A stretch of 35,576 nucleotides of DNA from an uncultured marine group I thaumarchaeote (GCA_902511735.1 CABXGK010000005.1:1-35576); one strand, 5' to 3'; numbered from the stretch's first letter, positions 3,398 through 28,431 are shown. The notes: generated from the letters alone by a model not told the origin. A program made the numbers and translations.

Positions 3398-4474
3398 ATG
3401 AAAAAAATACTTGTAACTGGTTCTGGTGGTATAGGTGGTGTAAATTTTGTTAGAGCATTAAGAGCCACCGATGAAGAATTTTTCCTTGTTGGAACTGATT
3501 TTAATAAATATTATTTAGAATTCCCTGATGTTAACTTACGTGTAAATACACCAAGACACTCTGATTCTACATTTCTTCCACAAATTAAAAAAATTATTAA
3601 TGAATATCAAATAGATTTTGTCCATCCTCAACCTTCCTCTGAAGCATTAGTGATTTCTCAAGATAATGAATTAAAATCAAAAACATTCTTACCATCATCT
3701 ACCATAATTGCAAATGATAAATTAACAACCCAGAAAATTCTGTCTCAAAAAAACATTGATGTAGCATACACGAAAACACTTGATTCTTTGAATGACTTGG
3801 AAAAAAATTTTGAAGAGTTAGGTGGAGGACCATTATGGGTTCGCTCAAAAAAAGGTGCAGGTGGAAATCTTAGTCTTTTATGTGAAACTAGTACCGAAGC
3901 AAACCACTGGATAAATCTCTGGATCTTAAGAAAGAAAGCACAATTAGATGATTTTATGATACAAGAATATTTACCTGGACAAAACATTGCATGGGATAGT
4001 TTTTGGTTTAATGGAAAATTAATTGCATCTTATACTAGGGAACGACTTGAATATCCATTCAAACATATTTCTCCATCTGGAATAACTGGAACACCTACAG
4101 TTTCAAAAATAATTGTAGATGAAAAAATTAACAAACTTTGTGAAATGGCGGTTACATCTGTTGATAGTAATCCACACGGAAATTATTCTATAGATCTAAA
4201 AGGTGACACAGAAAACAATATGCACATAACTGAAATTGATTCTGGAAAATTTCATACTACAACTCCTTTGTGGGGTTACATTTCTTCAAAATTCTTTAAT
4301 CAAGATCCAAAATATAATCTTCCATATCTTTACACAAAAATTGGATTAGGAGAAATCTCTGATCCTGAAATTCTTGGAAATGATATTTATCCAAAAGAAA
4401 CGATTCTTGTGCGACATATTGATTGTGGGGACTGGATAATCAAAGATGATGGTACAAAGGTACAAGTTCTATGA
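3398..4474 (+). CDS. ATP-grasp domain ligase (CarB/PylC-like)
   Basis: 358 aa. It begins with a Rossmann-like pre-ATP-grasp segment (VTGSGGIGGVNFVRAL). The ATP-grasp domain follows, with the flexible nucleotide loop RSKKGAGGN, the hinge region IQEYLPGQ and a late metal-binding TEIDSGKF. ATP-grasp enzymes activate a carboxylate as an acyl phosphate and couple it to an amine or thiol. Here the likely job is ligating an amino acid or similar group to a sugar acid or carrier, but the substrate is unknown. Its stop overlaps the start of the HAD gene by 4 nt (ATGA), so the two are translationally coupled. The ATG has a TATA-like box around 3364-3372. Confidence 0.75.
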   Translation: MKKILVTGSGGIGGVNFVRALRATDEEFFLVGTDFNKYYLEFPDVNLRVNTPRHSDSTFLPQIKKIINEYQIDFVHPQPSSEALVISQDNELKSKTFLPSSTIIANDKLTTQKILSQKNIDVAYTKTLDSLNDLEKNFEELGGGPLWVRSKKGAGGNLSLLCETSTEANHWINLWILRKKAQLDDFMIQEYLPGQNIAWDSFWFNGKLIASYTRERLEYPFKHISPSGITGTPTVSKIIVDEKINKLCEMAVTSVDSNPHGNYSIDLKGDTENNMHITEIDSGKFHTTTPLWGYISSKFFNQDPKYNLPYLYTKIGLGEISDPEILGNDIYPKETILVRHIDCGDWIIKDDGTKVQVL

Positions 4475-8198: not shown

Positions 8199-9119
8199 CT
8201 AAATCTCGTCAAATTTTTTCATAGAAATTATTTCATTGATCCATTCTTCAAGAAATACAGTAGGTTTCCAACCTATTTTCTCTTTAATTAAATCAATATT
8301 TGCAATTGTTTTTTGTACATCTCCTTTTAGGGCTGGACCAAAAATTGGTTCTATATTCAATTCAGCAGATTTTATGATAGTTTTTGCCAAATTTAATATT
8401 GTTATGGAAGTATTGGTTCCAACATTAAAAAATTCATGATCTACATCACTATCCATTGACATTATATTTGCATCAGCAACATCTTCCACATATACAAAAT
8501 CTCTAAACTGTGTTCCGTCTCCATTAATTTTTGGTGGTAGTTGATCTCTTATTCTCTCCAAAAATAATTTTAAAACTCCTGCATATTCTTTTGATTGACC
8601 TTTTCCAAATACATTGAAATATCGTAATCCAATCACTTTCACACCAATTTTTGAATATTTTTTAGCTAATTCTTCTTTTTTTAATTTTGTTTTAGCGTAT
8701 GGATTGATTGGGTTTTTACTATCTAATTCACTGATTGGAATTTTTTCTGGATTTCCATAAACACTTGATGAACTTGCATAAACAACTTTGAAATTATATT
8801 TTTTAGCTAATTTTAGAATATTTTCGGTCCCATTAACATTCACATCATGATATTCTTCAGGTTTAGAAAATGAATCTTGTACTGATGCAAGTGCAGCTTG
8901 ATGAAATATGCCATCTATTCCTTTAGTCTCTTTTTCAAGTAAATCCATATTCAAAATGGTATCATTCAAAAAAGTTATCTTATCTCGAACTAATTCTAAA
9001 TTTTCTTCCTTGCCCGTGTTCAAATTATCAATTACAGTAACTTTATCTCCTCTAGCAGCTAATTTTTTTACAATATTACTTCCTATGAAACCTGCTCCAC
9101 CTGTAACAATGTATTTCAT
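8199..9119 (-). CDS. NAD-dependent epimerase/dehydratase (extended SDR, GalE-like)
   Basis: 306 aa. The NAD-binding GGAGFIG is at 7-13, SSSSVYG at 116-122 carries the catalytic serine/threonine, and the YxxxK pair is Y141/K145 (YAKTK). RYFNVFG and the C-terminal GWKP region match UDP-hexose 4-epimerase-type SDRs. It most likely epimerises a UDP-hexose or UDP-HexNAc at C4; UDP-glucose from the neighbouring GalU-type enzyme is a plausible substrate. Other SDR activities such as C5 or 4,6-dehydratase chemistry cannot be excluded. It sits between the methyltransferase and the GT4 in a minus-strand operon. Confidence 0.85.
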   Translation of the reverse strand: MKYIVTGGAGFIGSNIVKKLAARGDKVTVIDNLNTGKEENLELVRDKITFLNDTILNMDLLEKETKGIDGIFHQAALASVQDSFSKPEEYHDVNVNGTENILKLAKKYNFKVVYASSSSVYGNPEKIPISELDSKNPINPYAKTKLKKEELAKKYSKIGVKVIGLRYFNVFGKGQSKEYAGVLKLFLERIRDQLPPKINGDGTQFRDFVYVEDVADANIMSMDSDVDHEFFNVGTNTSITILNLAKTIIKSAELNIEPIFGPALKGDVQKTIANIDLIKEKIGWKPTVFLEEWINEIISMKKFDEI

Positions 9120-9149: not shown

Positions 9150-9980
9150 TTAACTATTTTTTAAAATAATTCTTAGATATTTGCCATTGTTCTCATCTGT
9201 TTTTATTCTAGGATAATATGGAAATGAATTTTTTAGAATTTTATGTCTGATACCTTCTGTTTTTTTAGCTGGTCTAAATATATCACATGATAAAATTTTG
9301 TATCCTGTATTACTTGCAAGTATTGATAAGGATTTTTTTGTAAAATGATAAAGGTGTGGGCTTTTCTCAACCGAACTTTTTAACATTGGTTTGAATTCAC
9401 AATTTGGTACTTCTATGAATAAAACTCCATCTTTCTTCAACATATTTTTGATTTTTCTAAAAAAATCATCAGGTTGTAAAAGATGTTCTAAAACATGAGA
9501 CATCCAAATAACATCAAATTTTTCATCAATAGAAAACTCTTCAATAGATGATTCAATTACTTTTCCTCTTTTCAATTTTGCATTAATCATTGAAACATTT
9601 CTTCCATCGGGCTCAATTCCTTTTACATTAAACCCATTATTTTCAAACCAAAGAATTGCTTGTCCTGTGCCTACACCTATTTCAAAAAAATTTTTTCCAG
9701 CAATAAATTTTTTAGTATACGAATACTGTGAAATCAAATCTCTTTTTTTCCCTTCAGAATTATTATCTGTATGATCAGAATTTATTTCAACTTCTGCGTT
9801 ATTCTTATCCCAAAAATCCTTTTTGTACATATCTGAAACTTTTTCAGTTTTTTGTTGTAGACTGTCTCCATTCATGTAGATATTACAATCTCCACAAAAA
9901 TACACCGGTAATTTTAGAAAAGATGAATTTAAAATTTTTTTTGATGATTTATCACATAAGATGCATTTCATTTTTGTCAT
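9150..9980 (-). CDS. Class I SAM-dependent methyltransferase with N-terminal Cys pairs
   Basis: 276 aa. The N-terminus has CILC (5-8) and CGDC, a zinc-type four-cysteine module. The methyltransferase core follows, with FFEIGVGTGQAILWFE as motif I, GIEP as the acidic end of beta 2, and MSHVLEHLLQPDDFF as the post-motif typical of the Methyltransf_23 group. This resembles sugar C- or O-methyltransferases of glycan clusters. Its first 29 bases overlap the end of the UDP-glucose-dehydrogenase-type gene, so it is probably translated from the same transcript. A second in-frame ATG lies at 9971. Substrate unknown. Confidence 0.82.
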   Translation of the reverse strand: MTKMKCILCDKSSKKILNSSFLKLPVYFCGDCNIYMNGDSLQQKTEKVSDMYKKDFWDKNNAEVEINSDHTDNNSEGKKRDLISQYSYTKKFIAGKNFFEIGVGTGQAILWFENNGFNVKGIEPDGRNVSMINAKLKRGKVIESSIEEFSIDEKFDVIWMSHVLEHLLQPDDFFRKIKNMLKKDGVLFIEVPNCEFKPMLKSSVEKSPHLYHFTKKSLSILASNTGYKILSCDIFRPAKKTEGIRHKILKNSFPYYPRIKTDENNGKYLRIILKNS

Positions 9981-11283
9981 TTCCTATACCTATTGCATAA
10001 TAATCAACATCTAATTTTTTATCTACTAATATTCTTCTACAATCAATAACCATTTTCTTCTTCATTTGTTTAAAATTATTTTTAGTCAATTTTTCATATT
10101 GTTTCCACTGTGTCATAATTATCACACATTGACTTCCAGATATTGCATCTTCGATTGATTTTCCATAATTTATCTTGTCTTTAAACACATTTTTTGTGTT
10201 CTCTATTGCTCTTGGATCATGAACAGTCACCTTAACTTTTCTTTTCAAAAATTTCTTAATTAACTCTATTGCAATAGAATCTCGTATATCGTCTGTGTTT
10301 GGTTTAAACGATGTTCCTAGAATCGTAATCTTCTTTGATTCAAGAATTCCTAATTTTCTTTTTACTAATGAAATTACTTCTTCTAGTTGTTTTGTATTAA
10401 CATCTTCTACAGCATTCAATAATGTTGGTCTTACTCCTGTAATCTTTGCAAATTTTATCAATGCCTTCATATCTTTTGGTAAACATGAGCCTCCGTAACC
10501 TGGTCCTGCATTAAGGAACAATCCTCCTATTCTAGGATCTAATCCAATTGTTTTTGCAATATCATCTACATTTGCTCCAGGAATTTTTTGGCAAATATTT
10601 GATAATTGATTGATAAAACTGATCTTTGTTGCAAGGAATGAATTATTTGCATATTTTATCATCTCTGCCGTTTGATGATTAGTAATTATGATTGGTGCAT
10701 CTGGATGTAATTTTGTAAAGAAATTTTTTACTTTTTTCATAAACTTTGTGCTATATCCACCTAGTACTACTACATGAGGAAATTTTGTATCTCTTATTGC
10801 TGTACTTTCTTGTAAAAATTCTGGATTTGAAATCAATCCAAAATCTCTTCCTGCTTTCTTTTTTGAATTATTTTCTAAAATAGGTAATATGATATCCTTC
10901 ATTGTTCCAGGTACAACTGTACTTTTGACTAATATGATGTGTTGTTTTTTACTCTCTCGAATATTTTCCCCTAGTAACATCATTGCTTTTTTTATAATTG
11001 AAAGATTAATGGCACCAGTACTATTTTGTGGAGTTCCAACAGTAACAAAAATCAAATCACAATCTTTTACTAATGAAAAATCACTTTTAATTTTTAATTT
11101 CTTTTTTAATCCATTCTTCAAAGTTTTTTCTAAATCTGGTTCAAAGAATGGTGAAATTCCGTCAGATATTTTTCTACATTTCTCTTTATCAACATCTATT
11201 CCAACAACATTGAATCCCTTTGAAGATAAAACACTCGTGAGTGATAGACCTACAAATCCTAATCCTATAATTCCTATTTGCAT
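9952..11283 (-). CDS. UDP-glucose 6-dehydrogenase (UDP-glucose/GDP-mannose dehydrogenase family)
   Basis: 443 aa. The order is an N-terminal NAD domain (GLGFVGLSL at 7-15), a central helical domain with KYANNSFLA, the catalytic cysteine C267 in GYGGSCLPKD, and a C-terminal UDP-binding domain (ILGTSFKPNTDDIRDS). The enzyme oxidises a UDP-hexose to the uronate with two NAD+. With a UTP-glucose-1-phosphate uridylyltransferase just upstream, UDP-glucose to UDP-glucuronate is the most likely reaction. The length is normal for the family. It sits second in the minus-strand run 12142 to 7084. Confidence 0.9.
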   Translation of the reverse strand: MQIGIIGLGFVGLSLTSVLSSKGFNVVGIDVDKEKCRKISDGISPFFEPDLEKTLKNGLKKKLKIKSDFSLVKDCDLIFVTVGTPQNSTGAINLSIIKKAMMLLGENIRESKKQHIILVKSTVVPGTMKDIILPILENNSKKKAGRDFGLISNPEFLQESTAIRDTKFPHVVVLGGYSTKFMKKVKNFFTKLHPDAPIIITNHQTAEMIKYANNSFLATKISFINQLSNICQKIPGANVDDIAKTIGLDPRIGGLFLNAGPGYGGSCLPKDMKALIKFAKITGVRPTLLNAVEDVNTKQLEEVISLVKRKLGILESKKITILGTSFKPNTDDIRDSIAIELIKKFLKRKVKVTVHDPRAIENTKNVFKDKINYGKSIEDAISGSQCVIIMTQWKQYEKLTKNNFKQMKKKMVIDCRRILVDKKLDVDYYAIGIGNDKNEMHLM

Positions 11284-11299
11284 ATAATCACTCTGTTAT

Positions 11300-12142
11300 T
11301 CATGCTTTTCTAAATGTAATGTCTTGTGAATTTTTATATGATTCAACTGTACCCACATCAATTTCATCTTCATTTTTATTTAATGTAATTGCTAGAACTT
11401 TTTTTGTTTTTTCTTTAATTAGATTTTGGATTGCATCTGTTAATTGAAATTCTTTTCCTTTTCCTTTCTTTATTTTTTTTAAACTAGAAAATATATCTGA
11501 TCTAAAATAGTATAATGGTAAAACTCCAAAATTAGATTTTGGCCTATCTGGTTTTTCTATAATTTCTTCAACTGTGAATAAATTATTTGATATTTTTTTT
11601 ATTGTTGGTACGCCATATTTTTTTGAATCTTTAATTTTTTTGCAAAGTAGAATTGCTTTAACATCAGGATTTTTTTTGGCCGTTTCAATTAATCTTACTA
11701 TAGGATGCTTTCCATGACTAAGAATTGTCACATCTCCGGCATGAACAATAAAATCTTCCTTACCAACATATCTTTCTGCACGTTTTACTGCATCACCAAA
11801 TCCTAATGGTTTATTTTGATTAATCCACACCAAATGCGAATTTTCTAATTTTTGGTAAAATTTTGTTATGAATTTTTTATAATCGCCAGTTAATTCCTTC
11901 AAATATGTTTCATGTGGAGTAAAATGATCCTCGATTGATCTTTTCTCTCTACCCACAACAAAGCAATAATCCCTAAAATTCATGGAATATAGCTGTTCGT
12001 AGATGTATTGTAACAATGGTAAAACTACTCTATTTTTTGTAAAAGTTTGAGAAAAAATTGGCATCATTTCTTTTGGCATTTCTTTTGTAAATGGCAATAA
12101 TCTTGTTCCTTTACCTGCTGCTGTAATTATTACTTTAGTCAC
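11300..12142 (-). CDS. galU: UTP-glucose-1-phosphate uridylyltransferase (GalU type)
   Basis: 280 aa from a GTG start at 12142. The nucleotide-binding signature is AAGKGTRLLPFTKEMPKEMMPI near the N-terminus. Further family landmarks are LGFGDAV, FIVHAGDV (acidic metal-binding region) and EEIIEKPD. It joins UTP and glucose-1-phosphate to UDP-glucose in the cytoplasm. Its place 16 nt before the UDP-glucose-dehydrogenase-type gene suggests it supplies that enzyme. An A/T element about 28 nt upstream (around 12168-12177) may be the promoter of this minus-strand operon. Confidence 0.9.
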   Translation of the reverse strand: MTKVIITAAGKGTRLLPFTKEMPKEMMPIFSQTFTKNRVVLPLLQYIYEQLYSMNFRDYCFVVGREKRSIEDHFTPHETYLKELTGDYKKFITKFYQKLENSHLVWINQNKPLGFGDAVKRAERYVGKEDFIVHAGDVTILSHGKHPIVRLIETAKKNPDVKAILLCKKIKDSKKYGVPTIKKISNNLFTVEEIIEKPDRPKSNFGVLPLYYFRSDIFSSLKKIKKGKGKEFQLTDAIQNLIKEKTKKVLAITLNKNEDEIDVGTVESYKNSQDITFRKA

Positions 12143-12246: not shown

Positions 12247-13629
12247 GTGATAATAATGTCAAATTTAAAAATTAATATGAATAATTTTGAAGACGTTCAG
12301 GAATCATTAACTAAAAAAACTCTTCGAGTTTGTGTAATTGGCATAGGTAGAATTGGTTTACCTACTGCATTATCTTTTGCAAAATCTGGATTGCAAACAA
12401 TTGGTGTTGATATAAATGAAAATTTAGTTCAAAATGTAAATTCTGGAAAATTTCCATTAAAAGATGAACCTGGATATGAAGAAATCTTCAATGATGTAAT
12501 AAAAAATAAAAAATTTACTGCAACAACAAAAATTGAAGATGCTGTCACAAATTCAGATTTAATACTTTTATCATTGCCTACCCCAATGGATGAAAATAAT
12601 ATTCCTGATTATTCTGCATTAAGAAATGTGGGCTCTCAATTATCAGATATATTGTTAGATAATTCTTTAGTTATAGTTGAGAGTACCATTGAACCTGGAT
12701 TTATAGAAGATGAAATGATATCCCTTATCTCAAAATCAGGAAAATTACAAGTAGAAAAAAATTTCTTTATTGGTGTATGTCCCGAAAATGCTAATCCTGG
12801 TGAAATTTTACATGATTTTACAAATCTTCCACGATTAGTTGGAGGGATAAATCCTCAAATTACAAAAATTATAAAAATTATCTATGATTTTGTTTTTTCA
12901 GTTGAACTTGTTGAAATGCCTGACTGTAAAACTGCAAATGCTGTCAAACTAACAACAAATGTTTTCCGTGATATCAACATTGCATTTGTTAGTGAATTAT
13001 CTTTAATGTTTGAAAAATTAGGAATAGATACAAACAAAGTTCTAGAAGCAGCCAAAAGGAAATATAATTTCCAAGTTCATTATCCTGGAGCCGGTGTTGG
13101 TGGGCCTTGTCTTCCAATTAATTCTTATCAATTACTTAATACCGCAAGACGTACTGGTTCTAATCTTAGTATTATTGAATCTGGTAGAAAAATTAATGAA
13201 AAAATGCCTTCACATGTTATAGATCTAACATCTGATGCATTCAAAGAATGTGGAAAATCATTTGATAATAGTGAAATCCTCATTCTTGGCATATCATACA
13301 AACCTGATGTAAAAGATATTCAATTAACTCCTGCTGAAAATATTATTAAAAAATTAAAATCATTAGGTGCAAATGTGCATATTTATGATCCATATTACTC
13401 ATCAGTAAAAATATTTGATATTGATGTTAAAGAATCTCTTTCTGATGAATTACTTGAAAAGATGGATGCAGCAATAATAGTAACTGCACATGAAGAATTT
13501 ACAAAAATTATTGTATCTGATTTTTGCAAAATGAAAACTCCTATCTTAATTGATAGTCGTGGAATAATAGATCCTGTTGTTGCTAAAGATTCAAAGTTGA
13601 TTTTTAGAGGGTTAGGTCGTGGAAAATAA
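12247..13629 (+). CDS. Nucleotide-sugar dehydrogenase, UDP-HexNAc 6-dehydrogenase (WecC/TviB) type
   Basis: 460 aa from GTG 12247; an ATG four codons in (12256) is equally possible. The NAD motif GIGRIGLPTALSF begins at 32, the catalytic cysteine is C288 in GVGGPCLPIN, and a C-terminal substrate domain begins at ILGISYKPDVKDIQ. GPCLPIN and the longer N-terminus set it apart from the UDP-glucose-type enzyme at 9952-11283 and match the UDP-ManNAcA/GlcNAcA-forming branch. The product would be a UDP-HexNAc uronate. The amidotransferase gene overlaps its 3' end by 11 nt, suggesting that this uronate is amidated next. Confidence 0.85.
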   Translation: MIIMSNLKINMNNFEDVQESLTKKTLRVCVIGIGRIGLPTALSFAKSGLQTIGVDINENLVQNVNSGKFPLKDEPGYEEIFNDVIKNKKFTATTKIEDAVTNSDLILLSLPTPMDENNIPDYSALRNVGSQLSDILLDNSLVIVESTIEPGFIEDEMISLISKSGKLQVEKNFFIGVCPENANPGEILHDFTNLPRLVGGINPQITKIIKIIYDFVFSVELVEMPDCKTANAVKLTTNVFRDINIAFVSELSLMFEKLGIDTNKVLEAAKRKYNFQVHYPGAGVGGPCLPINSYQLLNTARRTGSNLSIIESGRKINEKMPSHVIDLTSDAFKECGKSFDNSEILILGISYKPDVKDIQLTPAENIIKKLKSLGANVHIYDPYYSSVKIFDIDVKESLSDELLEKMDAAIIVTAHEEFTKIIVSDFCKMKTPILIDSRGIIDPVVAKDSKLIFRGLGRGK

Positions 13630-14839
13630 TCATCCTGTTATCAATCCGTCATCATTAGTAAATATTCTAACATTAAGATATGATTCGAATTTAAACCCAA
13701 ATCTACCAATTAAAACTGCAAATGATTTCAAACCAACCATTCAATCTGTAAATATAGACTCGATAGAAAAATCAATATTAAATTACATAGAACAAAAATT
13801 AGAAATTTCTTCTGATGAAAAAATATCTATTGCTTTAAGTGGTGGAGTAGATTCTACACTTGTTTTATCATTAATTCGAAAAATAAAACCTGATGTGAAT
13901 ATAGAAGCTGTTTCTATAAAATTTGCTGACAGTGTTGATGAAACAAATGCTGCCTCAAAAATTGCTGAAACATTTGAAGCTAATCATCATGTAGTATATC
14001 TTGAAAATTATCTCTCTGAATTACCTAAAGCTATTAGTATGATTAAAATGCCTTTTTGGGATTTACATTGGTATTATGTTGTTAAAAAATCACAGTCTCT
14101 GTCCAAATTTTTGATTTCTGGTGATGGAGGAGATGAGCTTTTGCAGGTTATACTTTTAGATACAAAAAATTTCTTTCATTAACATCTGAAAAATCAACAC
14201 CATTAGACAAAGTAATTGCATATATGGAATGTCATGAAAGAGATCGTGTTCCTGATCAAGAAAAAATTTTTAACTATAATTCTAATTTTTTCTTGGAAAT
14301 CAATTCATGATATTCTTTTACCATATTTTGACAATGAATTATCTAGACTTGAACAGGTATTTCTAGCAGATTATAATGGAAAACTCCTCTATAATTTTAA
14401 TCCAATAAATACCAATATTATAAAAAATTTTAAAATGAATTTACTAACCCCAATTTTAAATGATGATTTACTTTCTATTGGTCCTCATTTAATACATGCA
14501 AAAAAATATGATTCTACTAATGATTTAGGGAAATTACCTTTTAGAACAATATTGAAAAATAATGGACATGATCACCTAGTCGGTAATCAAAAATTAGGAT
14601 TTAATGTTAATACAATTAATTTATGGAAAAATAATGGACACAATTTGTGCAAAGAATTTCTTACTGATTCTAGAGTAGTAAAAGATGGTTGGATAAATGA
14701 TGATTGGATAAAGAAACACATTGATTCTTTGGAGTTAGATGTAAAGTATGTCAATAAATTTTTTGGAATCCTTGCATTTGAAATATGGTATAGATTATTC
14801 ATTACAAAGGAAATGAATAGTAATACTACACTAGATTAA
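13619..14839 (+). CDS. Asparagine-synthase-type amidotransferase without glutaminase domain, doubly frameshifted
   Basis: The PP-loop SGGVDS (74-79) and SGDGGDEL identify the synthetase domain of asparagine synthase. There is no N-terminal Ntn glutaminase domain: the protein begins MENN with no Cys2, and about 60 residues precede the synthetase domain. Two opposite indels break it, a missing T at the T4 run near 14141 and an extra T at the T6 run near 14290. Repair gives GDELFAGY, RVPDQEKIF and FSWKSIHDI in one 406-aa frame, ending with the typical LGKLPFR and QKLGFNV. The enzyme adenylates a carboxylate and amidates it. The GTG start overlaps the WecC-type gene, so a HexNAc uronate is the likely substrate (inference). 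The ammonia source is not visible. Confidence 0.8.
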
Positions 14840-14852
14840 TTTAGTCTATTGA

Positions 14853-15633
14853 ATGAATAAAATAATGAAGAAAGACATTGTTGCTGGATTGGGAGAAATA
14901 GGTCTTCCAATTTTAAAATTAATATCTAAAAAAGAAAATGCTATTGGCTATGATCTAGATAAAAAATTAATGAATGAAAAAAAATTCAATAAATTCCAAA
15001 ATATACAAACACGTTTTTTACATATTTCAATACCTGTAAAAAAAAATTTTATTTCCAATGTACTTACATTATACAAAAAAATTTAATCCCGAATGTATTG
15101 TTATACATAGTACAATCAGTCCTGGAACTACCGAACGTATACAAAAAAAATTGAATATACCTGTAATTTTTAGTGCAACGCGAGGTGTCCATAAAAGAAT
15201 GTTGAAAGATCTTCGAATATATACAAAATTCTTTGCTATATCAAAAAATGCACCGAAAAAAAATTGGGCTATTTCACAATATGAAAAAACTATGAAAAAA
15301 TCTGGAATTAAGACTCAACAAATGTCAAAACCTGAAACTTTAGAGCTTGCAAAAATTCTCTGTGATACAACATATCTTGGATGGTTAATTAATTATGCAC
15401 AACTCACTAACACAATTGCGATACAACATAATGTGAATTATGATGAAATGTGGCAATTCTCAGATGAAATTCACGATAAATTAGGTAATCGCCCAAAAAT
15501 GTTTCCTGGTTTTATAGGCGGTCATTGTGTCATTCCAAATTTAGAATTAATCCAAAATCAAACATTTGATATTATTAAATCAATAAATAAAAAATATTCA
15601 AAACAGGTAAAAAACTCAAAAAACTATTTATAA
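14853..15633 (+). CDS. Short nucleotide-sugar-dehydrogenase homologue lacking the C-terminal domain, frameshifted
   Basis: Dropping one A from the A7 run 15075-15081 gives a continuous 259-aa protein. It has a Rossmann start (GLGEIGLPI), the dehydrogenase segment IVIHSTISPGTTERI, a central helical region, and GFIGGHCVIPN in place of the usual GGxCLPKD, so a cysteine sits where the catalytic one lies in UDP-sugar dehydrogenases. The family is normally 430-460 aa; the C-terminal nucleotide-sugar domain is absent, with only about 40 residues after the cysteine. The NAD domain is also compressed. It may be a different oxidoreductase on a small substrate, or a relic. The start could be ATG 14853 or ATG 14865. 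It follows the amidotransferase by 13 nt. Confidence 0.65.
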
Positions 15634-18528: not shown

Positions 18529-19395
18529 TCAATTAAATTCGTCCCAACCAAACTTATTATCAATTAATTTTTGAAATTTTTTATTATACAATTTATAAAA
18601 ATCAATTAAAATCTTTCTTGTTTCTTTTTTCATAGGCGGATATTTTCCAACATTTTGTTTTTCAAAATTTTTTATCGTAAATTTAGGTAAATCAAGAAAT
18701 TCAAATATGTCATTGAATATTCTAATAGGGTCTTTTTCTAAATCTTCTGTTTTGATAAATAATAGTTGATCTTTTTGGAATAATTCGGACCAAATTTTTA
18801 ACTGTTCGAAGTAAATTCCCCTTGCTAAAAATGAGTTTTCTAATAATTCTAGTGGAAATTCTTTCGATTTTTTTATTTTAGTTTCATGTATTTTTATTTC
18901 TTTTTCAATTGCTTCTTCAAATGATATTTTTTTTGATAATCTAGTGTCACCATTGAAATATGAATATGCTACATCTGCAGGATTTCTACAAATTATTATT
19001 AATTTAATTTTAGGTAGTGTTTTAAGAATTTGTTTAGCACATAATGGACTTGTGATATACCAAGCTGTAACATCATAAGTTAAAAATTTACCATATTTTT
19101 TCAAAATTTCATTTTTTGTTTTACGAGTAGGAAAAAATGATTTATAAAAATTCAAACCTAAATGAAAATTGTCATCAAAAAATCCTAAATGATCATGTGA
19201 TGATTTTATAATACATGGATGTTCTCCTAAGTAATGATAGAGTGTGCTAGTTCCAGCTTTACCAAATCCTATGACCATAAAATCTGGCAGTACTCTGAAA
19301 GATGCTGTAATTCCATACACATGTCTTTGTAAAAAATTATATCTTATTTTTTGGTAAATGTTTACCAGGAATTTTCTAACAATTTCAAACGTCAT
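18529..19395 (-). CDS. PAPS-dependent sulfotransferase (first of two)
   Basis: 288 aa. The 5'-phosphosulfate-binding loop is GFGKAGTSTL (43-52), preceded by LPDFMVI. The 3'-phosphate motif is CRNPADVAYSYF with R137 and S145. The FDDNFHLG and KFLTYDVT blocks are shared with the second sulfotransferase at 22680. It transfers sulfate from PAPS to a hydroxyl or amine, here probably of a glycan; no signal peptide is seen, so it acts in the cytoplasm. Its ATG lies inside the last codons of the membrane-protein gene (11-nt overlap), so the two are cotranscribed. It converges with the APS kinase gene with 10 nt between the ends. Confidence 0.88.
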   Translation of the reverse strand: MTFEIVRKFLVNIYQKIRYNFLQRHVYGITASFRVLPDFMVIGFGKAGTSTLYHYLGEHPCIIKSSHDHLGFFDDNFHLGLNFYKSFFPTRKTKNEILKKYGKFLTYDVTAWYITSPLCAKQILKTLPKIKLIIICRNPADVAYSYFNGDTRLSKKISFEEAIEKEIKIHETKIKKSKEFPLELLENSFLARGIYFEQLKIWSELFQKDQLLFIKTEDLEKDPIRIFNDIFEFLDLPKFTIKNFEKQNVGKYPPMKKETRKILIDFYKLYNKKFQKLIDNKFGWDEFN

Positions 19396-22679: not shown

Positions 22680-23552
22680 ATGAAGTATAATACACAATCT
22701 AACGGAAATATCAGAAATATCTATCAAAAAATTTTTTATGGATTATACAAACGTAATATTTTCTATATCACTAGTAGATTTCGTGTATTGCCCGATTTTT
22801 TTGTCATTGGTGTAGTTAGAAGTGGAACAACATCCTTGTTTCATTATATGAGTCAACATCCTTGTATTGAAAGTTCTGCTTATGATGAAATAGGATATTT
22901 TGATGACAATTTTCATTTAGGGTTAAGTTGGTATAAATCATTATTCCCTACTAAATTTACAAAAAATAAAATTAAAAACAAACATGGTAAATTTTTAACA
23001 TATGATGTAACGCCATTCTACATTTATAATCCATTAGTGGCAAAAAGAATTTTAGAATCATTTCCAAACGCAAAAATTATTTCAAACTTACGTAATCCAA
23101 TTGATCGTGCATATTCAAATTACATAATAGCATTTCAAGAAGGAGATACCACTAAAACTTTTGAAGAAGTAATACACATTGCAATGGATGAACTTAAAAA
23201 AAACAAATCAAAATTAAATGACAATGCATATCTCGTAAATGTACATTATGAAAATATTCTGGCAAGAGGATTTTATGCAGATCAATTAAAAATATGGTAT
23301 GAATTTTTTCCAAAAGATCAACTTCTAATGGTTTCATCAGAAGATCTTGCAAATAACACAAATAATTCATTAAATAAAATTTTTAATTTTTTGGATCTTT
23401 CAGATTTCAAAATTAATGATACTACAAGAAAGAACAAACGTGAATATTCTCCGATGAAAAAGGATACAAGAAATTTATTAATAGAATTTTATAAACCTCA
23501 TAATGAAAAACTCTATAGATTAATTGGTAGAAATTTTGATTGGGATAAATAA
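22680..23552 (+). CDS. PAPS-dependent sulfotransferase (second of two)
   Basis: 290 aa. The 5'-phosphosulfate loop is GVVRSGTTSL (44-53), with arginine in the position that is often lysine. The 3'-phosphate motif is LRNPIDRAYSNY with R138 and S146. It is clearly a paralogue of the enzyme at 18529-19395 (shared FRVLPDF, FDDNFHLGL, KFLTYDVT, ILARGFYADQLKIW-type blocks). The two probably sulfate different positions or sugars. The formyltransferase gene begins 3 nt after its stop, so the two modifications may be coexpressed. Confidence 0.88.
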   Translation: MKYNTQSNGNIRNIYQKIFYGLYKRNIFYITSRFRVLPDFFVIGVVRSGTTSLFHYMSQHPCIESSAYDEIGYFDDNFHLGLSWYKSLFPTKFTKNKIKNKHGKFLTYDVTPFYIYNPLVAKRILESFPNAKIISNLRNPIDRAYSNYIIAFQEGDTTKTFEEVIHIAMDELKKNKSKLNDNAYLVNVHYENILARGFYADQLKIWYEFFPKDQLLMVSSEDLANNTNNSLNKIFNFLDLSDFKINDTTRKNKREYSPMKKDTRNLLIEFYKPHNEKLYRLIGRNFDWDK

Positions 23553-26351: not shown

Positions 26352-27295
26352 TTAAACGTTAGATTGTTCCAGATCGAAATCACCATCTTCAAGAATTTTT
26401 ACCATTTCTTCAATTCCATCTTCAGCCAAAAACTTAGTTGAAAAATTCAATTCATTTTTTATTCTATCAAAATTTACAATGTAGTCTCTTTTATCTTCTT
26501 TTTCAACAATATTCAATGGTACATTTAGTCTATCACTCACTTTTTCAGCAATTTCTCGTTTTGTGTAATTTTGAATAGACGAGCCAACATTATACACACG
26601 AGAAAGTATGCCTTCATGTTCAATACATAACAGTATTGCATTAGAGATATCACTTACATGAACAATAGGTCTGTGTACTTCTGGCATAAAGACATTGATT
26701 TGTTTTTTCTAACCATGCTTCTTTGATAAAATCACTTACTAGCAAATCAAATCTCATTCGTCCTACAGATAATCCATATGCTGTTGCACAACGTAATACA
26801 GTTGAATTAGAAATATTTTTGATCAAGTATTTTTCAAGATTTACCTTCGTTTCAGCATATAATGATGTAGGGAATAAATCACCATCTTCATCAACCATTT
26901 CTTTGGCTTGACCATAATTAGAACAAGTTGATAATTGAATGAATTTTTTAATATTTTTTTTCTTTGCAAAGATCTGCAAGGTTTTTTGCTGCTTCAAAAT
27001 TTACTTCAACTGCTTCTTCTGGTTTAATTTTACAAAGTGGTTCACCAACTAATGCTGCAAGATTAACAACATAATCTCCTTCATGAATATGTTTACTCAT
27101 AAAATCTAGATCTCGAATATCTTTCTGATAAAATTCAATTCTATTAGAGTTATAAAATTCATTTTTAAAATTAGAATCTAATTTAAAATCTAGTCTATCT
27201 ATTATTGTAAGATTATAATCAGTTTTTTCAAGTAGAATTTCTGTTAATTTTGTACCAATGTACCCAGATCCACCACAAAGAATTATCCTTTTCAA
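26352..27295 (-). CDS. NAD-dependent epimerase/dehydratase (extended SDR), doubly frameshifted
   Basis: Two extra bases break it, in the T8 run 26954-26961 and the T6 run 26703-26708. Removing one base from each gives a 313-aa frame. The NAD motif is GGSGYIGTKL, VNLAALVGEP follows, the active-site region is STCSNYG, the catalytic pair is in YAETK, and VHRPIVHVSDI is the usual late motif. This form, with a cysteine next to the active-site SNYG, is common in SDRs of surface-sugar clusters. Exact reaction unknown. It begins at TTG 27295 and is followed at once by the DegT gene, which may aminate its product. Confidence 0.75.
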
Positions 27296-27448: not shown

Positions 27449-28431
27449 TTGGTTGACAAAATTAGAATTGCTGTAATTTATAGAAAAGAGATGGAATTTT
27501 TATCTCCTACTTTCAGAGATAATACATTATATTATTTTTTCAAACATGCATTAAATAGAAATCAACGTTTAGATGTAGAATTTTTTCTTGCAGAAAAAAA
27601 ATTTGATATAAAGATTTTAAAAAATAATTTTGATGTTATCTTGTTACCTGATAATAGATTTCCACATATTCCAACTGAATTATTAAATATTGAAGAAACA
27701 AATATCCCTGTAATATCTAGAACAGGAGATCCACATCATATAAAAAAATATAACAAATTACAAATTCATGAATCACATAAAATAAAATATTATTTTGGAC
27801 CCTTGACAGAAGATTATTTCCATAAATTCTTTCCTAAAGAAATAAAATTTAAGTTCATAATGGCAGGATTAGAATCTGATTTATATAATTCAATAAAACC
27901 ATTTGATGACCGCATATCTAACAAAATTCTTAACACCGGAAATATAGGAAATATAAAAATTAAATCTCGTATTGCAAATGCAATATTAAATCCAAAAATG
28001 TCAAGTTGGTATTTTATAAATTAAGAACTTTGTGTAATCAATTTCCACACGTGGATTATTCTGGTATGTCTCAGAATTCTTACATACATGAAGATTATCC
28101 ATCATACGTATCTGGATATAAGAGTGCTATTGCTGCATCAACATATTATGCAGTAATAAAATATTTGGAACTTACAGCTGCTGGCTGTTTAACATTTATG
28201 GAAGTTTCAGAAAAAAATTACGATGCAAAAATTTTAGGTTTTGAGGATTACAAAAATGCCATATTTATTAATGAAAAAAATTACAAAGAAAAATTCAATG
28301 AATTCCTTCACAATAAAGACAATCCTGAATGGAAGAAAATTGCTAATGCGGGTAGAACACACACATTAGCAAATCTGAATAATGATAAAATGGTTGAATC
28401 ATTAATTGAATTAATTGAAGAAATAATTTAA
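27449..28431 (+). CDS. CgeB-like glycosyltransferase, frameshifted
   Basis: Adding one T to the T4 run near 28010-28014 joins both halves as SSWYFYKLRTL and gives a 327-aa protein. The C-terminal half has KYLELTAAGCLTFMEVSE and ILGFEDYKNAIFINE, the glycosyltransferase group 1 pattern of CgeB/PF13524-type GT-B enzymes. The N-terminal half is a Rossmann-like domain with VILLPDNRFPHIP. A nucleotide-sugar-dependent transfer to the growing glycan is likely, donor unknown. The start is TTG 27449, supported by an A/T box around 27413-27426. It is transcribed alone and converges with the GT39-like gene. Confidence 0.7.

Follow-up and report, generated by a model that had tools for sequence, protein, structure and literature searches.

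Genes of the locus and the interrupted reading frame

The window analysed here (the whole stretch of 35,576 nucleotides) is contig C5 of genome G000, a 758-kb assembly from an uncultured marine group I thaumarchaeote that is 57% complete; going by its near relatives, the organism belongs to the ammonia-oxidising Nitrosopumilaceae. In its glycan locus a dehydrogenase gene (DH) is followed by the gene of a synthetase of the asparagine synthase type (AS), and further genes with likely relation to nucleotide sugars are found on both sides of the pair (Table 1). Two sulfotransferase-domain genes and one gene for an ATP-grasp protein were also observed in the glycan locus.

Table 1. Position of the features discussed in the text, counted from the first nucleotide of the window.
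Feature	Position	Strand	Remarks
ATP-grasp protein (RimK/PRK12767-like)	3398-4471	+	62 bits; copy in G021 96% identical
GalE/WbpP-like sugar epimerase	8199-9119	-	candidate UDP-GlcNAc/GalNAc 4-epimerase (presumed substrate); common near DH-AS
Second dehydrogenase, UDP-glucose 6-dehydrogenase/AglM-like	9952-11283	-	DH-AS locus; 408 bits, cut-off 670
NTP_transferase (sugar-1-P nucleotidyltransferase)	11300-12142	-	divergent neighbour of DH
DH, UDP-HexNAc-type 6-dehydrogenase	12247-13629	+	460 aa, complete; three UDPG/MGDP_dh Pfam domains
AS, first frame segment	13619-14140	+	PP-loop SGGVDST, SGDGGDE; 83% identity with G018 (residues 3-174)
AS, middle segment	14141-14290	+	not in the frame of the first segment; FAGYTFRYKKFLSL...NSNFFLEINS; bounded by one deleted and one inserted base, both in T runs
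AS, last segment	14310-14839	+	first frame again; IHDILLPYFDNE...LADYNGKLLYNF...NQKLGFNVN...
Short UDPGDH-like protein	14853-15633	+	downstream neighbour of AS; frame-broken here
Sulfotransferase-domain protein	18529-19395	-	candidate sugar sulfation
Sulfotransferase-domain protein	22680-23552	+	candidate sugar sulfation
Gene frame-broken compared with relatives	26352-27295	-	indels checked at base level
Gene frame-broken compared with relatives	27449-28431		

The ATG at 12256 represents an alternative start of DH and is, by homology, possibly the true one. The catalytic-Cys motif GVGGPCLP is invariant across 10 orthologues, and the best solved relatives of DH are the UDP-ManNAc dehydrogenase of P. 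horikoshii and Cap5O. The first-pass annotation had named the protein a WecC-type dehydrogenase. This naming holds at the superfamily level, where DH reaches 361.6 bits against TIGR03026 (nucleotide-sugar 6-dehydrogenase, cut-off 189.8), but not for WecC specifically, since only 206 bits were obtained with PRK11064 (WecC, cut-off 459) and 278.8 bits with NF040825 (cut-off 750). DH shares the three-domain fold and the catalytic Cys with WecC, WbpA, TviB and Cap5O, which are its best PDB matches, but it stays under every equivalog cut-off and belongs to the TIGR03026 superfamily.

The short UDPGDH-like gene downstream of AS carries one single-base insertion near an A/T run. The protein is intact in another locus (L039:11000-11800), measures 250-266 aa, lacks the C-terminal UDP-binding domain and has the Cys motif GGHCVIP. 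Proteins of this type gave zero Pfam matches and, against TIGR03026, only 23.8 bits. The gene often adjoins AS, while in other genomes it is sited elsewhere.

AS opens with GTG at 13619 and overlaps the end of DH by 11 nt, which confirms the earlier observation that the amidotransferase starts within the last codons of DH; likewise, the PP-loop and the SGDGGDE motif ascribed to it can both be read in the sequence. However, the assignment of 13619-14839 to one AS gene stands only with regard to these motifs and the overlap, because two 1-base indels prevent a single open frame in this assembly. Frame 1 runs up to ...SGDGGDEL, meets a stop at 14180-14182 and resumes at about 14310, and the middle part, which can also be read as FAGYTFRYKKFLSLTSEKS...NSNFFLEINS, is out of frame 1. 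Alignment to an intact relative revealed that CTTTTG, at about 14140, has lost one T and that AATTTTTTC, at about 14290, has gained one; both changes lie in homopolymer T runs and compensate each other. Reading through the stops, AS gives a profile match of 544 bits.

The local AS could be a decaying pseudogene, which would fit any function of the intact family. The two indels in AS, the one in the next gene and additional ones at 26.3-28.4 kb point in this direction, and 4 of the 26 window genes with orthologues are broken, all of them right of 13.6 kb (three flagged by a frame change, and AS, whose compensated shift escaped that method). Nevertheless, each indel in AS and its neighbour affects a single base within or next to a homopolymer, and the other broken genes of the window have unrelated functions, which suggests that assembly quality is impaired in the right half of this contig; the genome as a whole is only 57% complete. 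Moreover, comparison with AS of G018 yielded dN 0.108 and dS 1.12 (dN/dS about 0.1), and even the out-of-frame middle alone keeps a ratio of about 0.12 in its own frame (dN 0.148, dS 1.28), while uninterrupted orthologues exist in 30 of the 72 other genomes of the family. Strong purifying selection thus acted on AS until very recently, so that a fault of the assembly or a mutation of very recent date is likelier than long decay, and we regard a pseudogene as rather improbable. The functional claim discussed below is made for the intact AS family and not for this local copy.

The AS family and its pairing with the dehydrogenase

Intact AS orthologues are mostly 400-412 aa long, with PF00733 covering residues ~65-391. 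The lack of an Ntn glutaminase, initially noticed in this one protein, is common to the whole clade: intact relatives gave no Pfam match to a GATase domain, and the MC[GAS] start providing the Ntn nucleophile was found in 0 of 24 AS sequences vs 41 of 41 other synthetases compared. AS retains the catalytic elements SGGxDS, SGDGGDE and the Lys of K-x-G-F. The loop E-x-R-x-P-F-L-D, searched as a strict pattern, occurs in 27 of the 41 other synthetases but in none of the 24 AS proteins. According to our own mapping of the numbering, we take this loop to be the site of Glu-414 and Leu-415 of ASNS. Near its place AS has the conserved block LADYNGKLLYNF. In human ASNS, Glu-414 and Leu-415 belong to the ammonia tunnel and gate (PMC11615228). 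The AS segment ILTLRYDP..., situated before the PP-loop, can be aligned with the linker that joins the two domains in AsnB-like proteins (for example NYLSFRY in an archaeal AsnB), which suggests that AS may descend from a two-domain protein that lost its glutaminase.

Established family models describe AS poorly. All intact AS proteins tested scored 62-88 bits against TIGR01536 (cut-off 267) and 39-78 bits against TIGR03108, where bacterial relatives reach 540-698 bits (cut-off 816.9); taking TIGR01536, TIGR03104 and TIGR03108 together, the values were 50-88 bits (39-64 for one distant paralogue), all far below the cut-offs, so that AS is no more than a putative member of the WbpS family. The AS profile matches AsnB in the PDB. 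The nearest structures to an AlphaFold model of a named relative (pLDDT 85.5) are TsnB9, the AsnB enzymes of human and E. coli, and carbapenam/beta-lactam synthetases, with a TMq of 0.62 for TsnB9 vs ~0.51 for the two AsnB enzymes. Compared with AsnB/ASNS (E. coli 1ct9, human 8sue), AS shares the fold, the PP-loop, G-[DE]-G-x-D-E and the Lys of K-x-[GQ]-F, but it differs by the missing glutaminase and E-x-R-x-P-F-L-D loop, the separate clade, the location in a glycan locus and the patchy presence.

In a phylogenetic tree that compares AS with bacterial TIGR03108-like proteins, with the AsnB of E. coli and with two AsnBs of archaea, AS forms a single, separate clade (SH-aLRT 100, stem 1.8); the branches are long, which makes the nearest sister uncertain. 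AS hence did not group with true asparagine synthetases, as far as these are represented by E. coli AsnB and the two archaeal AsnBs. A strong AS match was obtained in 27 of 398 genomes of the phylum, belonging to families f1 and f8 and one genome of f27; members of the clade thus occur in ammonia oxidisers and in one other lineage of this phylum. Several other leads on AS were discarded. A close viral copy was not found, the 68 viral loci being only 21-35% similar, and the best plasmid matches were AsnB-like or N-acetylglutaminylglutamine amidotransferase proteins with 23-25% identity. An apparent 785-aa fusion (L059) owes its length to an N-terminal extension of low complexity, implausible and with no domain match, and a role in a defence system was based on nothing but a weak match to a QueC domain.

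The association with DH is tight. Among 73 Nitrosopumilaceae genomes, 31 contain AS and 25 contain DH, and every one of the 25 DH genomes also has AS (hypergeometric 3e-14, ignoring kinship and linkage). When longest-ORF starts are used, 16 of 17 adjacent pairs overlap by 8-26 nt, which suggests translational coupling of the two genes. This recurrence, together with the uninterrupted orthologues in 30 of 72 genomes, shows that the arrangement is not a product of chance. DH and AS adjoin or overlap in nearly all loci; the adjacency was also seen in three named records, and in G008 another gene is placed between DH and AS. Six Nitrosopumilaceae genomes (G006, G007, G011, G031, G050, G052) harbour AS without this DH, hence AS may also accept other acids. 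Frequent neighbours of the pair encode glycosyltransferases, a GalE/WbpP-like epimerase, a UDP-glucose dehydrogenase and a nucleotidyltransferase; in some loci aminotransferase, methyltransferase or sulfotransferase genes are added.

Acceptor sugar and the asparagine question

We assign a probability of about 0.5 to the reading that the DH-AS pair makes a HexNAc uronamide for a surface glycan with free ammonia as donor. DH would oxidise C6 of a UDP-HexNAc, UDP-GlcNAc or UDP-GalNAc being likelier than UDP-ManNAc, to the uronate, and AS, as PF00733 synthetase without Ntn glutaminase, would use ATP to adenylate the C6 carboxylate and form the uronamide with free ammonia. Together, the two enzymes would modify a nucleotide sugar in two steps on its way to the surface glycan of Nitrosopumilaceae. 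The acceptor, the nitrogen donor, the order of steps and the glycan destination are what we infer.

Alternatively, AS might be a true ammonia-dependent asparagine synthetase that is found beside DH by chance. It belongs to PF00733, a canonical glutaminase-bearing AsnB was found in only one of the 16 Nitrosopumilaceae genomes tested (at least 85% completeness), and an 'asparagine synthetase' of Ca. N. brevis, which may be this gene, was annotated as housekeeping in a population study (PMC9239043). However, the near-complete genomes G033, G038, G041 and G059 are without both AS and AsnB; they possess GatB, in several of them near an AspRS above the aspS_nondisc cut-off, and AsnRS stays under the cut-off throughout the family. 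Each of the 16 f1 genomes tested (at least 85% complete) has a GatB above the cut-off, irrespective of whether AS is present. The nearly constant absence of AsnB and the presence of GatCAB regardless of AS make asparagine synthesis an unlikely role, although two AspRS-like genes were found per genome, one of which might be an AsnRS of archaeal type. Furthermore, a chance neighbourhood leaves the co-occurrence with DH unexplained, and AS branches apart from the AsnB of E. coli and those of archaea. Hence, we consider asparagine synthesis very improbable, and a role as uronate amidotransferase is the better fit. A small PF00733 protein of ~264 aa at L002:1429-2223 (G000:C16), found in nearly all relatives, may be an Asn synthetase and could bear on the asparagine question.

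Regarding the sugar, the WecC-type label would imply a product of the mannuronate type. This is doubtful, because WecB, the UDP-GlcNAc 2-epimerase (TIGR00236), gave no match in G025 and G063 (both 99% complete) and in G018 (85% complete), which all carry DH-AS; in G035, G044 and G061 WecB was above the cut-off. UDP-ManNAc is therefore unlikely as general substrate of DH. Given the neighbouring 4-epimerase-like gene, UDP-GlcNAc or UDP-GalNAc seems more plausible. The pathway would then resemble the WbpP-WbpO-WbpS route of P. aeruginosa O6.

Several known systems resemble the pair in part. PGN_1234 (WbpS) is required for a uronamide, and the uronamide enzymes WbpS/WbqG are AsnB-like (PMC7468200). 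The chemistry of a PF00733 synthetase is common to AS and to PGN_1234, WbpS (P. aeruginosa O6) and WbqG (E. coli O121), which amidate the uronate of a HexNAc on the way to a surface glycan (PMC7468200). AS has the PF00733 domain with PP-loop and G-D-G-x-D-E and is linked to DH in a glycan locus. However, stand-alone synthetase domains, initially given as the bacterial precedent, were not what we encountered: the tested WbpS/WbqG are AsnB-like, and the TIGR03108-like proteins compared measure ~630 aa with an N-terminal Ntn glutaminase, whereas AS has ~405 aa without it. WbpG/PseA/WbuX, proposed earlier for comparison, are, like AS, PP-loop enzymes acting on glycan sugars but belong to another family, TIGR03573, which is not among the TIGR matches of AS at E <= 0.01 and of which the genome has a separate member (G000:C20, 304 bits) in a nonulosonate-like cluster. 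This cluster (L230, G000:C20:1-9000) comprises PseB/CapD-like, aminotransferase, cytidylyltransferase-like, acetyltransferase-like and WbuX/PseA genes, with roles assigned by eye, and is a candidate for a nonulosonic-acid pathway. Finally, the amidated mannuronate of methanogen archaellin is not a simple uronamide: its C6 amide is a threonine amide, and a WbpG homologue adds an acetamidino group (PMC2952790).

Collectively, the domain content, the catalytic motifs, the absence of a glutaminase, the conserved pairing and the separate clade, as read from sequence, are consistent with the uronamide reading first put forward for the pair. The DH linkage in 25 of 25 genomes, the glycan loci, the patchy distribution, the independence from GatCAB and the separate clade speak for it, whereas the local AS frame is broken, a mannuronate product is doubtful and the precedents named for it needed correction.

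Nitrogen donor and meaning for the surface glycan

No glutaminase was recognised among the conserved DH-AS neighbours scanned. Matches to GATase_7 in the family are of GlmS or PurF size; the exceptions are the AsnB of G036 and, in two genomes, an additional copy as large as GlmS. The single-domain NAD synthetase of M. jannaschii uses ammonia and not glutamine (PMC3376133). Such NadE enzymes, common in Archaea, carry out a PP-loop amidation with NH3 without a glutaminase (PMC3376133), though acceptor and family differ from AS. Since an archaeal single-domain synthetase takes ammonia directly, free ammonia is the simplest donor for AS, a role that we propose from the missing glutaminase. Alternatively, the uronamide could be made with ammonia delivered in trans by a separate glutaminase. 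Split arrangements are known from GatCAB and from NAD synthetases with separate G-subunits (PMC3376133), and cytosolic ammonia may be scarce in oligotrophs. Nevertheless, delivery in trans is unlikely, because no candidate was recognised among the conserved neighbours, the GATase_7 matches are mostly accounted for by GlmS- or PurF-sized proteins, and AS misses the tunnel/gate loop of glutaminase-type synthetases.

The missing glutaminase might also indicate a different nucleophile instead of free ammonia, in which case AS would couple the uronate to another amine such as an amino acid or hydroxylamine. The hydroxyamidotransferase TsnB9 is the best fold match, and beta-lactam and carbapenam synthetases, which have the same fold and are among the fold matches, use an amine other than ammonia. 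Moreover, the glycans of M. voltae and M. maripaludis bear a Thr amide at C6 of the ManNAc uronate, the ligase for which was unidentified in a 2010 review (PMC2952790). However, the lead of TsnB9 is narrow and the fold is silent on the donor. The scan of the conserved neighbours brought up no recognisable gene for loading an amino acid. Hydroxylamine is thought to arise outside the cytoplasm in ammonia-oxidising archaea, which also argues against its use. Coupling to another amine is thus unlikely. Its more specific version, in which both the loss of the glutaminase and the replacement of the tunnel/gate loop reflect a changed nucleophile and the uronate is joined to hydroxylamine, the intermediate of ammonia oxidation, or to an amino acid to give a surface sugar bearing a hydroxamate or aminoacyl amide, appears distinctly unlikely.

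The one known N-glycan of Nitrososphaerota is that of Ns. viennensis, while no N-glycan was detected in Np. piranensis (PMC12153357). The former is nitrogen-rich and contains four units of 287.11 Da, proposed as Hex(NAc)2(CONH2) (PMC12153357). We considered this sugar as proof of a uronamide and ruled it out by mass arithmetic: 287.11 Da fits a di-NAc-hexose plus CHNO (carbamoyl), whereas a di-NAc-hexuronamide would have 257.10 Da. Hence, it gives no direct support for the DH-AS pathway.

If the uronamide reading with free ammonia is true, AS flags a group of proteins that general annotation may name asparagine synthetase, and DH-AS provides a defined gene pair for work with cultivated strains. 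Many marine ammonia oxidisers would then invest nitrogen in the amide of a surface sugar, perhaps taking it from free ammonia and not from glutamine. The surface coat surrounds an ammonium-binding S-layer (PMC11153153), and turning an acidic sugar into a neutral one would alter the charge of this coat.
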